IMG/VR virus record: IMGVR_UViG_3300046665_000163
Location: 1-20,348 of that record
Strand: one strand, 5' to 3'
Length of the DNA: 20,348 nucleotides
DNA from: a virus
Part shown: piece by piece, positions 8,691 through 20,348 of the stretch
How the letters are laid out: each line of letters opens with the position of its first letter
Numbering within the stretch: the first letter of the stretch is position 1
Position numbers and translations under genes: made by a program
Notes under the pieces: model-generated
What the model was told of the DNA's origin: nothing
Seen by the model: only the letters and a program-made list of their open reading frames with translations
Databases searched by the model: none

Positions 8691-8860
8691 CAATCCAGTT
8701 TCCCGAAGTTCAGGCGCTGGTATTCGGCACTGCGCATGGCCTTCAACTCGCGGACTGTTACCTCAACAAAGCCATCTGGGCGCTTGGCTTCCGGTCCGGT
8801 CATCTTCGCGTGTGCGCTTTCAACATCAGCCTGCGAATATCCTTTGCCGAACAAGCCCAT
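8690..8860 (-). CDS. Small phage protein upstream of terminase (56 aa)
   Basis: A 56-residue protein starting MGLFGKGYSQADVESAHAKM and ending YQRLNFGKLD. Start and stop are both coupled to neighbours as TGATG, which is good support that it is translated. It looks soluble and mixed helical. I do not recognise a family. Position just before TerS suggests a late accessory gene, but no function is assigned. Confidence 0.65.
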   Translation of the reverse strand: MGLFGKGYSQADVESAHAKMTGPEAKRPDGFVEVTVRELKAMRSAEYQRLNFGKLD

Positions 8861-14545: not shown

Positions 14546-14820
14546 CAGAATGGCACGTCGTCTTGCATGTCGGAATTGCGGCCAGTGCTGCGGGGGCGCT
14601 CAGCAGGCGCTTCAGCGCGAGCCGGGGCGTCATCCTTGGGCTTGGGCGGATACATTGACAGCCATGCCTGCCCCTCTGCGTTAGGCATAGGGAGCGCATC
14701 AAGAACGACATTGAAGCCGTCTTTGCCTTCCTTTGCCGGGAACATCGATCCAATCTTGGTGTACCGGATCTTGCCATCTTTATCTTTGCGCGATGTAACT
14801 ACGTCATAGCGACCGGTCAT
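14545..14820 (-). CDS. SSB-like protein with acidic DDVPF tail (91 aa)
   Basis: A 91-aa protein starting MTGRYDVVTSRKDKDGKIRY, with a short beta-rich front (TKIGSMFPAKEGKDGFNVVL), a Pro/Ala linker and the last residues MQDDVPF. The acidic tip followed by Pro-Phe matches the DDDIPF tail with which SSB recruits partner proteins. The globular part is shorter than a bacterial SSB OB-fold (about 110 aa), so this is a reduced or unrelated ssDNA-binding protein that has kept the recruitment tail. It lies directly after the Rad52-like gene (ATGA), a common phage pairing. Confidence 0.7.
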   Translation of the reverse strand: MTGRYDVVTSRKDKDGKIRYTKIGSMFPAKEGKDGFNVVLDALPMPNAEGQAWLSMYPPKPKDDAPARAEAPAERPRSTGRNSDMQDDVPF

Positions 14821-15497
14821 TCTGCTGCCTGCTGGGTTGATGCCGCACCAATGCGGTCAAGGGTTTCGAGAAGGTGACGACGCATGGAGGCCGGAAGCTG
14901 GGCAATCATGCCTGCATTCCGTTCCTTCACGTCCTGTGCGGACGCTGCGTCGGTGACAAAGTGCTTAATGACCTGGTTTGCGAACGCGTAGGCCACGCGA
15001 CCGGCTCGCAAACCCCACCCGGCCGTCGTGCAAAAATCCTCGTGGATCTTGTCGAGGTTCTTCCGCTCGGCTTCGGGAATGATGAAGCTGCGGCCGCGAG
15101 CCTCGATAGCGACCCAAGGCGACTTCATCTCATAGAGATAACGGCCGATCCCCCAACGCACCGCAGCGCGCTTGAGAGCGTCGGAGAGCATGCCCTTCTC
15201 GCCTTCAACGTCGGTAGCTCCGGCGCCGTCAGCCTTCCAGACCCAATCCCCGCCTGGGACACGGACGCCTATGTTGCAGACAATGGCACTACCGGCGGCG
15301 GCCGAGTAATTACACTGCCATCCATCAGGGCCACAGACGCCATCAAGACGATCCATGACAGCACGAGCGTCCATGTAGGCAAGTGCCATGCCTTTGGTCT
15401 TGTCAGCATTGGTTGACCCAATCCGCCAGTCGATCTCTTCAGCTGCGAATGGCATGCTGAGAGCGTCGAACAATTCTTGGGAGGTTTCGTAGTTCAC
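14817..15497 (-). CDS. Rad52/22-family single-strand annealing protein
   Basis: A 226-aa protein starting from a GTG at 15497 (GTGA overlap; GGAGGG upstream). The core ARAVMDRLDGVCGPDGWQCN, the beta-strand region, and DVEGEKGMLSDALKRAAVRW with GIGRYLYEM are typical of the Rad52_Rad22 family. In that family the 'SDALKRAA-x-x-x-G-x-G-x-x-L/Y' block is the most conserved stretch. It would anneal complementary single strands during phage replication and concatemer formation, probably with the SSB-like protein encoded next. The C-terminal third is helical and phage-specific. Confidence 0.88.
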   Translation of the reverse strand: MNYETSQELFDALSMPFAAEEIDWRIGSTNADKTKGMALAYMDARAVMDRLDGVCGPDGWQCNYSAAAGSAIVCNIGVRVPGGDWVWKADGAGATDVEGEKGMLSDALKRAAVRWGIGRYLYEMKSPWVAIEARGRSFIIPEAERKNLDKIHEDFCTTAGWGLRAGRVAYAFANQVIKHFVTDAASAQDVKERNAGMIAQLPASMRRHLLETLDRIGAASTQQAAE

Positions 15498-17474: not shown

Positions 17475-17609
17475 CGGACTCGCACCCATGACGGCCTCCG
17501 GTTCGAAAGCTGCTGACGAATAAGTTTTGAAGGATTGCACTGGCGCCCCCCGGTGCATGATGGGGCGGGAAGCGGCCGATGTATTTGCGTAGTCGCTTCC
17601 CGTGCTCAT
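17352..17609 (-). CDS. Small single-pass membrane protein (85 aa)
   Basis: From ATG 17609 (GGGAG seven bases upstream) the protein begins MSTGSDYANTSAASRPIMHR. It continues with a soluble region (SPLTPIADAIGRFLGLAVKV) and ends with one transmembrane helix (ISLCFIAVGAGALIARVSFF). The strong ribosome site and plausible helix favour it over the opposing plus frame. It would be expressed on the transcript leaving the Cro-like gene. Function unknown; superinfection exclusion is one possibility for a small membrane protein placed here. Confidence 0.5.
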   Translation of the reverse strand: MSTGSDYANTSAASRPIMHRGAPVQSFKTYSSAAFEPEAVMGASPLTPIADAIGRFLGLAVKVISLCFIAVGAGALIARVSFFVF

Positions 17610-17728
17610 GCTGCAACTCCCGGCTGAAATCGCTTGGAAAAAGTTGAGTGTGCCGGATTGCGACACGATGCAGTGCGCAATGGAATCTTCTGGAACTCTT
17701 CAAAATAGTTGCCGCTTGTTCCCGCCGA

Positions 17729-17752
17729 TGTGATCAGATGATGACGATCACA
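17729..17752. promoter_or_regulatory. Inverted repeat TGTGATC-N10-GATCACA, candidate operator
   Basis: TGTGATC (17729-17735) and GATCACA (17746-17752) are exact reverse complements separated by ten bases, sixteen bases before the start of the plus-strand gene at 17768. The geometry equals that of the repeat at 17235-17260, although the sequence differs. It could be the operator of that gene. Confidence 0.45.
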
Positions 17753-17767
17753 CAACAGGGGTTGGGA

Positions 17768-18001
17768 ATGAGCGAAGCTGATTTCTACGGTGTCCCGGAA
17801 TACTTCGTTAGCCATGTTGCGACCGAAAGCGCCGGCAACGGCAATATTCGCGTGATCAACTATGCCGTGAGAGGCGGGATGTCCGTTCCGCAGTTCACCG
17901 TCGTGATTGCCGCAGTCGATCTGCTCAAGGCTTCGCGCGAGGTTGAGGTTGCCGCGGAAGCTATGTTTGTTAAGGAGAGATTGTGCTGGGCCAGTCATTG
18001 A
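17768..18001 (+). CDS. Conserved-looking unknown protein next to the switch (77 aa)
   Basis: From ATG 17768 (AGGGG six bases upstream): MSEADFYGVPEYFVSHVATE, then NGNIRVINYAVRGGMSVPQF and a helical end (SREVEVAAEAMFVKERLC). ATGs at 17738 and 17741 lie within the inverted repeat and are less likely. The style resembles small conserved proteins of Bradyrhizobium-type genomes, but I cannot name a family. It converges with the Cro-like gene; their last seven bases overlap. The transcript driving the early operon would run antisense through it. Confidence 0.6.
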   Translation: MSEADFYGVPEYFVSHVATESAGNGNIRVINYAVRGGMSVPQFTVVIAAVDLLKASREVEVAAEAMFVKERLCWASH

Positions 18002-18207
18002 GCCGGCTCCACGTCATAGAAGTCGTTTGCAGTAACGTCCCCCGAGGTTTCCCGGATGATCGCTTCCATCCGGTCTTTGTTGGGGATTGTCCCGCTGCAA
18101 TACGCGCTGATCATCTGTGGGGTGACGCCGATCGCTCGGGCAAAATCACCGCGGACGCGCTTCGTGCCGTCAGTCTTGGGGGTGTCTAGCCACTGATCTA
18201 ATTTCAT
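17995..18207 (-). CDS. Cro/YdaS-like helix-turn-helix protein (70 aa)
   Basis: A 70-aa protein starting MKLDQWLDTPKTDGTKRVRG; the HTH is DFARAIGVTPQMISAYCSGT followed by IPNKDRMEAIIRETSGDVTA. Length and layout fit phage Cro or YdaS-type DNA-binding proteins encoded opposite the repressor. The ATG at 18207 follows the operator array directly. A possible sigma-70 promoter TTGACT-N16-TATAAC (minus, 18240-18213) would start RNA at or next to the ATG, so the message may be leaderless; GAGG is too close to act as a normal ribosome site. It probably turns down the repressor promoter and permits lytic growth. Confidence 0.8.
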   Translation of the reverse strand: MKLDQWLDTPKTDGTKRVRGDFARAIGVTPQMISAYCSGTIPNKDRMEAIIRETSGDVTANDFYDVEPAQ

Positions 18208-18212
18208 GCCTC

Positions 18213-18248
18213 GTTATAGCCTGACCATAATTATAGTCAAGCCATAAC
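18213..18248. promoter_or_regulatory. Immunity operator array: two abutting 17-bp operators
   Basis: Two sites abut: TTATAGCCTGACCATAA (18214-18230) and TTATAGTCAAGCCATAA (18231-18247), each TTATAG-N5-CCATAA. Together they make a 36-bp imperfect palindrome (15 of 18 positions paired). They span the -35 and -10 of the presumed minus-strand promoter. Half-sites TTATGG also occur at 18258 and at 18301, the latter over the repressor start. The same double site recurs at 20147-20180. Confidence 0.8.
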
Positions 18249-18308
18249 CAAGAAATATTATGGTGAGGCCCAATGGGGCGGAACTCGGCTTTTTGCTAAA
18301 TTATGGTC

Positions 18309-18653
18309 ATGGCAAAAAAAGTAATCCCCCGACCCAAAGTCCGCCCTCGAATGCGCACATTCTTCCGTGAGTGGCGAAAGTACCGAGATCTGACGCTGGA
18401 AGAGGCTGGCGAGCGGGCTGGAATGACGGCCGGCAATCTCTCTGCCATGGAGCGCGGCACGCAGGGATACACTCAGGCGGGCCTAGAGGCTCTTGCCGAG
18501 GCCTATAACTGCGATCCTGGCCAGCTCTTGACGATCGATCCCAGCAAGGAAGACGCCATCTGGTCGATCTGGGAGCGGGCCAAGCCTGGCGATCGGCTTA
18601 AGATCGTGGATATCGCCAAGACGATCATTGGGAAGACGGGAACCAACGGCTAG
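18309..18653 (+). CDS. CI-like XRE-family repressor, lacking a peptidase domain
   Basis: About 114 aa from ATG 18309 (an in-frame ATG at 18303 would add two residues; neither has a ribosome site, so the message may be leaderless). The XRE HTH is WRKYRDLTLEEAGERAGMTA followed by GNLSAMERGTQGYTQAGLEA. The C-terminal ~35 residues (DAIWSIWERAKPGDRLKIVD) form a short helical dimerisation-like tail. There is no S24/LexA-type peptidase domain, so RecA-driven self-cleavage is not expected and induction must use another route. It diverges from the Cro-like gene across the operators. Its TAG stop shares CTAG with the stop of the convergent O-antigen gene. Confidence 0.82.
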   Translation: MAKKVIPRPKVRPRMRTFFREWRKYRDLTLEEAGERAGMTAGNLSAMERGTQGYTQAGLEALAEAYNCDPGQLLTIDPSKEDAIWSIWERAKPGDRLKIVDIAKTIIGKTGTNG

Positions 18654-19885
18654 GGCGCCGTTGTTGCTCCCACAGGCATTGCCTGCCGAGCTATAGCGAT
18701 CACAGCCACACTGAACACAAAGAACCCTTGCGCCCACGATACCCAAAGCCGGTGATCGACTGAGAACTCGATGACGACGGCGAACAGGATGGCGGCGGCC
18801 AAGAACTGGACCGCCCCCGTCCTTGCTAAGCAATAGCGAGTGAGCGCCAGCACAGCCCCGCAGAGTGCCACGACGCCCAGCAGGCCCAGGTCGTACCAGA
18901 AGTCAAACGCCGCGTTGTGGGCGCTGGGGATGTCGGGCAGATCGTAGAATTTGGCGCCCTTGATCACCCATGGCGACACTCGAAGGCTATCCACCCCATG
19001 CCCGAAAAGCGGGGCTTCCGGGATGTGCTCGGCGACCATTTGCCAGAGATCCAGCCGGGAGATGAATGATGCAGGGAGCGCATTCCCGAATGGGGCGATT
19101 TCTCCCATCACGTCTGCAATGATGAACGGCGCCAGAAATGCCATCGCGACGAATGCGGCTGCGAATAGGCACAGAAACAGAGCGCGGTGTGATTTGGCCA
19201 GATAGAACGCGGCCGTCAAAAGGACAGCCAGCGTTATTCCCGATGACTTCCCCATGAAAAGCGCCGGGATGGCAAAGACCAGCACAGCCAAAACAGGCGG
19301 GCGCCCCCTGCGCATGGCCTCTGCACACAGGACAGCAGCCGCGACGAACCCGTAGAGGGTCACCTTATGCAGGGTGCGCAATTGATCAATCAGGGCGGCT
19401 GGGTGCAGGCGCAGCGCCACATAAATTTCATAGGCCAATAGGGCGAATATGGCGACCGCGCAGCCGATCACGAGCGCTTGCCAAACCCTTTCGGCCTGAT
19501 CCCTGCTCAGACTTCGGATCTGCCCAACCAGCAGAACGCCGGCAACGCCATAAGCGGCTATGTTGAGCGCTGCCTTAGTGGCCCGCGGCGGGTCGATCGA
19601 CCAAAGACCGCTGGCGTAGACGAACAGCGCCACGGCACCGACCACGGATGCCGCCGGGAGGGAGAACCTGAATCGGCCGGCGAATGCCAGGGGGCAAAGC
19701 AATAAAGGTGCCGCAAATGCCCATGCGCTCGGCGCCATTTCAATCGTAACGAACAGGATCGGAGCTATTCCGAAGACGAAAAGCGCCACGCGCGTCGTGT
19801 TTTCAGCTAAATCGGAGACGAAAAGCGGCTTCCCCCCGGAAAAGGTGCCCCAGCCTTGCGACTTAACCCTGCCCACCATCGACAA
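18650..19885 (-). CDS. O-antigen polymerase/ligase-family membrane protein (Wzy_C type)
   Basis: A 411-aa protein with about ten to eleven transmembrane helices. Family signs are ASGLWSIDPPRATKAALNIA near the N-terminal third and, after a large periplasmic loop, APLFGHGVDSLRVSPWVIKG with SAHNAAFDFWYDLGLLGVVA. The 'GxGxxxx...HN.....ydLGlLG' pattern is the Wzy_C / O-antigen ligase signature. It would polymerise or ligate surface polysaccharide in the inner membrane, altering phage receptors. A TTG at 19885 has GGGGA eight bases upstream; an ATG at 19879 is the alternative. It lies beside the repressor, a usual place for lysogenic-conversion genes, and faces a 34-aa membrane peptide. Confidence 0.85.
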   Translation of the reverse strand: MSMVGRVKSQGWGTFSGGKPLFVSDLAENTTRVALFVFGIAPILFVTIEMAPSAWAFAAPLLLCPLAFAGRFRFSLPAASVVGAVALFVYASGLWSIDPPRATKAALNIAAYGVAGVLLVGQIRSLSRDQAERVWQALVIGCAVAIFALLAYEIYVALRLHPAALIDQLRTLHKVTLYGFVAAAVLCAEAMRRGRPPVLAVLVFAIPALFMGKSSGITLAVLLTAAFYLAKSHRALFLCLFAAAFVAMAFLAPFIIADVMGEIAPFGNALPASFISRLDLWQMVAEHIPEAPLFGHGVDSLRVSPWVIKGAKFYDLPDIPSAHNAAFDFWYDLGLLGVVALCGAVLALTRYCLARTGAVQFLAAAILFAVVIEFSVDHRLWVSWAQGFFVFSVAVIAIARQAMPVGATTAP

Positions 19886-19945: not shown

Positions 19946-20050
19946 ATGAGCAGGCTAATCGGCCGATTTTATATAGGCGTTTTCGCCCTATCGGCCGTTC
20001 TTGGGCTGCTCTTGTTGGTCTCACGGCCAAGCTACATCGCCCTGCAGTAA
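19946..20050 (+). CDS. Single-helix membrane peptide, Iap-like candidate (34 aa)
   Basis: A 34-residue peptide, MSRLIGRFYIGVFALSAVLG then LLLLVSRPSYIALQ: a basic N-terminus and one transmembrane helix. It is divergent from the O-antigen polymerase-like gene, about 60 bases apart. In Pseudomonas phage D3 a comparably tiny hydrophobic peptide (Iap) inhibits host O-antigen polymerase and is paired with a phage wzy. The resemblance is in size, topology and context only. GAG upstream is a weak ribosome site, so the gene is tentative. The frame is open upstream, but those codons fall in the presumed promoter gap. Confidence 0.45.
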   Translation: MSRLIGRFYIGVFALSAVLGLLLLVSRPSYIALQ

Positions 20051-20111: not shown

Positions 20112-20134
20112 GTGTCCCTAAAAAATAAATTGAG

Positions 20135-20180
20135 GTGACACCATATTTCTAGTTGCGCCATAATTATAGCCGTGCCATAA
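20135..20180 (+). promoter_or_regulatory. Promoter covered by a second copy of the immunity operator array
   Basis: A plausible promoter, GTGACA (20135-20140), 18 bases, CATAAT (20159-20164), is overlaid by two abutting 17-bp sites: TTCTAGTTGCGCCATAA (20147-20163) and TTATAGCCGTGCCATAA (20164-20180). The second is an exact TTATAG-N5-CCATAA match to the operators at the repressor switch. The gene at 20227 is therefore probably repressed by CI in the lysogen. Confidence 0.75.
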
Positions 20181-20226
20181 CTAGCCCACACACGAAACGA
20201 CGGCGCGACCGTCAGGTGGGGGCAAA

Positions 20227-20348
20227 ATGAGCAAGTGGATCAGCCTGCAGAAGACCGACACGGGCTTCGTATTCGCTACCACGCATTCGATCGTTGGCAG
20301 CCAGTGGGATTGGATCTCCGGCGTCATCGCTGAAGAGTTCGAGTGCTC
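20227..20348 (+). CDS. Unknown CI-controlled gene, 5' part only (runs off right edge)
   Basis: The ATG at 20227 is preceded by GGTGGGGG with four bases between. Forty codons are visible: MSKWISLQKTDTGFVFATTH, then SIVGSQWDWISGVIAEEFEC. No family can be named from this fragment. It lies about 46 bases after the second operator array, so it is expected to be off in the lysogen and on after induction, like a second early promoter (the lambda pL position). Genes there in other phages are kil, recombination, excision or antirepressor functions; which applies is unknown. Confidence 0.6.
   Translation, partial: MSKWISLQKTDTGFVFATTHSIVGSQWDWISGVIAEEFEC

Follow-up and report, generated by a model that had tools for sequence, protein, structure and literature searches.

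Divergent regulatory genes and operator arrays

The window analysed here is the whole record of 20,348 bp, and its immunity region contains two divergent regulatory genes with operators between them. A Cro-like ORF of 70 aa (17995-18207, minus strand; Pfam HTH_3, 1.1e-5) heads the leftward lytic transcript, and a CI-like repressor ORF (18303-18653, plus strand; Pfam HTH_31, 5e-10) starts at ATG 18303 or, more likely, at 18309. The CI-like protein is small, ~114 aa (116 aa or less), and its structure model consists of a helix-turn-helix (HTH), with pLDDT of 90+, and one C-terminal helix. A profile search matched, among others, the P22 c2 and 434 repressors. Pfam returned HTH families only, and neither it nor the model revealed a C-terminal peptidase/oligomerisation domain, which sets the protein apart from lambda-type repressors with their S24 peptidase domain, RecA-stimulated cleavage and octamers. 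It would therefore be unsafe to assume lambda-type induction by cleavage or looping through octamers.

Two arrays of 17-bp dyads flank cI, and their sites abut with zero gap at 18214-18247 and 20147-20180. The sequence stops 168 bp past the second array. Array 1 contains an outer site (TTATAGCCTGACCATAA, 18214-18230) and a middle site (TTATAGTCAAGCCATAA, 18231-18247), both without mismatch to TTATRG-N5-CYATAA; array 2 contains a middle site with one mismatch, TTCTAG (TTCTAGTTGCGCCATAA, 20147-20163), and an outer site with none (TTATAGCCGTGCCATAA, 20164-20180). These pairs had been reported in a first-pass annotation, and their sequences are as described there. That each array has just two sites is not borne out: both have a third, degenerate in the window. 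In array 2 it lies at 20130-20146 (TTGAGGTGACACCATAT), in register with good third sites of relatives, and in array 1 the positional homologue of the relatives' third site is displaced by 10 bp, to 18258-18274 (TTATGGTGAGGCCCAAT), by a 10-bp insertion that precedes it. Derived from 27 distinct sites, middle and outer, the consensus is TTMTDGYNNNRCYATAA; its third position varies naturally between A and C, and the TTCTAG of array 2, correctly counted as one mismatch, is therefore a normal variant and not a departure from consensus.

Scanning the window with TTATRG-N5-CYATAA at up to two mismatches gave five matches (0.57 expected): four make up the two pairs, and the remaining one, a weaker operator-like site, lies over the cI start (TTATGGTCATGGCAAAA, 18301-18317). 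Abutting pairs with at most four mismatches in total occur in the window only as part of the two arrays, and none was found in 60 random windows of matched dinucleotide make-up. Most relatives keep this weaker site at the cI start codon, as TTATAGTATGACCAAAA and similar sequences; it is a probable autoregulation site, in a position to repress cI.

The operator word in related phages

Protein searches with the CI-like and Cro-like sequences, together with two strict array-pattern scans, identified nine contigs in addition to the window (L005, L006, L007, L008, L009, L024, which is the contig of L017, L018, L036, and L038). Eight of the nine have an array in the cro-cI interval and another beyond cI, with ~0.4-2 kb between the two, and the second array of most relatives has three sites. 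In the ninth and more divergent contig, L036, the sites at the two expected places match only weakly. Cro-like homologues were found in seven viral loci, most of them adjoining the same array. Named relatives point to alphaproteobacterial hosts.

The two strict array patterns, run against 2.9 million viral contigs, matched only eight contigs, every one a member of this phage family, and some members were matched by one form only. Arrays of the same word accompany CI proteins with the HTH segment (T/S)(A/V)GN(L/I)SAMERG(T/A)QGYT and are absent from relatives with other HTH residues. A near-identity DNA search of a phage collection returned no match to the window, and a CI-alignment profile search of genome contigs returned a single weak match, in a Eubacterium MAG, which does not assign a host. 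L036 carries a strong operator pair several kb from its switch (reverse strand 8780-8813; plus strand of the locus 2069-2102) with a promoter TTGCGC-N17-TATAAA, which suggests that some members have more than two controlled promoters.

The word of the window is absent at loci whose CI is 34-50% identical. We compared the 120 bp upstream of cI with the DNA 0.3-2.4 kb downstream de novo in 13 such divergent phages, and matches within a phage exceeded those between phages (mean 18.2 versus 16.6 of 24; permutation p ~5e-5, n = 13). A word of the phage's own clearly recurs around cI in L010, L012, L021 (Rhizobium phage RHph_I1_23), L026, and L028; several others, taken singly, do not rise above background. 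Judged from these comparisons, divergent phages tend to carry their own operator word on each side of cI. RHph_I1_23 (MN988556) and Synechococcus phage Ssp-JY42 (PP438432), whose CI proteins are relatives at 38-42% identity, likewise appear to repeat words of their own, different from that of the window, on both sides of cI; neither record has operator annotation. The rightward genes of RHph_I1_23 extend to an ERF gene.

Predicted promoters share a register with the operators

Outward from cI, each array runs third, middle, and outer site, 17 bp each and without a gap. A -35 element (TTGCGC or TTGACY) falls within the spacer of the middle site and, at a distance of 17 or 16 bp, a -10 element (YATAAN and near variants) within the outermost half-site. 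Both arrays conform to this arrangement in nine loci, as mirror images of each other. In the window, the predicted pR-like leftward promoter (18208-18240, minus strand) is TTGACT (18240-18235), N16, TATAAC (18218-18213), in the register common to the other arrays, and the pL-like rightward promoter (20153-20181, plus strand) is TTGCGC-N17-CATAAC. The first-pass annotation had placed a rightward promoter here, and relatives have it in the same register.

The best scores of the conserved-register promoters are modest, 7-10 of 12 across the nine loci, and the evidence therefore lies in the register across loci and not in any single match. At array 2 of the window the best-scoring match is an alternative, GTGACA-N18-CATAAT (20135-20164; 10/12), which also sits on the operators, whereas the promoter in the conserved register reaches only 7/12; at three arrays the top score goes to the conserved-register element offset by a single base (GTTGCA-N18). 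Consensus and conserved register together predict outward promoters overlapped by operators in both arrays. The N5 spacers differ between sites, as noted earlier, but they are not free, because the spacer of the middle site holds the promoter -35. The zero gap between sites may in turn reflect an operator period that equals the promoter spacing. With the leftward -10 only 5 bp from the cro ATG, cro is probably leaderless.

An exchangeable slot between cI and array 2

In the window, this slot holds a gene for an O-antigen ligase/polymerase-like protein (Wzy_C, PF04932, 1.4e-13; 18650-19885, minus strand), a polytopic membrane protein with many hydrophobic segments. The gene is convergent with cI, starts ~260 bp from array 2, and is transcribed away from it. 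Searches of phages and viral contigs, at the sensitivity used, found no relative of the protein, and the gene is absent from the slot in all relatives examined. Beside it, the window has an ORF of ~34 codons with one likely membrane segment (19949-20050, plus strand; MSRLIGRFYIGVFALSAVLGLLLLVSRPSYIALQ). The surface-polysaccharide module proposed for this interval thus comes down to a single gene and perhaps the tiny membrane ORF.

Slot contents are exchanged among relatives, and this cargo is not a fixed part of the layout. The slot contains two small ORFs in L005, a methyltransferase-like gene in L008 (a weak match, below Pfam's cut-off), a P63C-domain gene in L009, a 93-aa ORF in L017, and next to nothing in L006, L007, and L018. 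The window and its closest relative, L005, are 82% identical over 17609-18644, up to the end of cI, and share no homology through the cargo; homology returns for 118 bp (20117-20234, 87%), covering array 2, the promoter, and the leader, and then ends again. Array 2, the promoter, and the leader thus form an island of conservation flanked by segments that have been exchanged. By the same comparisons, the ligase-like gene is one occupant of a variable, exchangeable slot.

A conserved leader hairpin and the rightward operon

Between the pL-like promoter and the first rightward gene, folding predicts a leader hairpin (20183-20226, plus strand), with a 3' arm that overlies the ribosome-binding region. 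It is found at the same place in nine loci (the window, L005-L009, L018, L024, and L038; mean folding z -2.05), and its arms differ in sequence among phages while their pairing is kept. The cro transcript, probably leaderless, has no such hairpin, and no Rfam family was detected in the immunity region. Hairpins are present in L010 and L028 too.

The first rightward gene (MSKWISLQKTDTGFVFATTHS..., 20227-20348, plus strand) is cut by the window edge; its ~40 visible codons match no family, and L005 has no homologue at the same place. ERF, a YqaJ-type exonuclease, and NinB are among the genes past array 2 in L017 and L018. The window itself encodes a Rad52/Erf-like annealing protein in the leftward operon (14817-15497, minus strand), whereas the ERF of L017 and L018 belongs to the rightward operon.

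Comparison with known immunity regions and interpretation

The lambda immunity region is ordered OL1-3/pL, rexAB, cI, OR1-3/pR, and cro, and its 17-bp operators form two sets ~2 kb apart (PMC5880393, PMC11077077, PMC4997575). The phages described here resemble it in having two sets of three 17-bp sites that flank cI, with outward lytic promoters inside them, and a slot for cargo, at the position of rexAB, that separates cI from the second operator. The analogy to pL and pR made in the first-pass annotation therefore extends to the relatives. Lambda pL leads to a recombination operon, and so does the second array in L017 and L018. Unlike those of lambda, the operators of this family abut without a gap, are in register with the promoter, and have an unrelated sequence; the repressor is ~114 aa without a peptidase/oligomerisation domain, and the cargo is convergent with cI and not co-transcribed with it. 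The likeness is thus one of layout and not of the whole mechanism. A precedent for flanking operators with a repressor of the non-self-cleaving type is the immB region of phiKO2 and N15 (CB, Cro, OR1-3, OL1-2), where operators flank a repressor that lacks self-cleavage residues (PMC4997575), although those operators are 16 bp long and OL controls repA of a plasmid prophage.

The region 20130-20181 is very probably the second operator/promoter region, an OL/pL analogue, in a lambda-like bipartite immunity region of a temperate phage. In the lysogen, the small CI-like repressor would occupy the tandem 17-bp sites at both arrays and so shut off the two outward promoters. When active, the leftward promoter would drive cro and the replication/structural genes, and the rightward one an early operon that in relatives carries ERF, YqaJ, and NinB for recombination. 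Through the weaker site at the start of cI, CI and/or Cro probably keep cI expression in check, and the ligase-like gene would be lysogenic cargo, presumably expressed in the lysogen. Looping between the two arrays is only possible.

Array 2 could instead regulate the cargo and not the rightward lytic operon, given that the ligase-like gene begins a short way off and is transcribed away from the array. We consider this improbable, since the array persists where the slot is empty or otherwise filled, the promoter register at array 2 points right in all nine loci, and no good leftward promoter in the slot overlaps it. More improbable still, to the point of being negligible, is a recent duplication or mobile repeat without a regulatory role. 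The half-sites and zero spacing are indeed identical between the arrays, but the spacers differ, which had already been taken to speak against a recent copy, and the relatives strengthen that argument: array 2 keeps its position across phages, its word changes along with that of array 1 in divergent phages, and against L005 it stands as an island between unrelated sequences.

A slightly better, though still small, chance attaches to the sites serving only the Cro-like regulator or some third one, with CI having sites elsewhere; Cro and the prophage repressor do bind different sites in phiKO2 and PY54 (PMC4997575). However, the sites cover both lytic promoters plus the cI start, and arrays of this word follow the shared HTH segment of the CI proteins and are missing where those residues differ. 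Within the preferred reading of an OL/pL analogue, we tentatively propose, as a possibility that we would not yet favour, a minimal lambda switch: the 17-bp operator period would be locked to the -35/-10 spacing, each operator unit supplying a promoter element; the ~114-aa repressor without a cleavage domain would read both arrays; and the conserved 5' hairpin of the pL transcript over the ribosome-binding site would add post-transcriptional control.

The lambda-like layout is already known; what is particular here is the zero-gap design and the exchangeable cargo slot. DNA sequence alone suffices to identify the immunity operators of this family of phages, which the records examined do not appear to describe, and the two-array layout with an internal cargo slot recurs well outside the lambdoid phages. 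Paired operator words provide a handle for assigning immunity specificities, and for locating lysogenic cargo genes, in uncultured phages.
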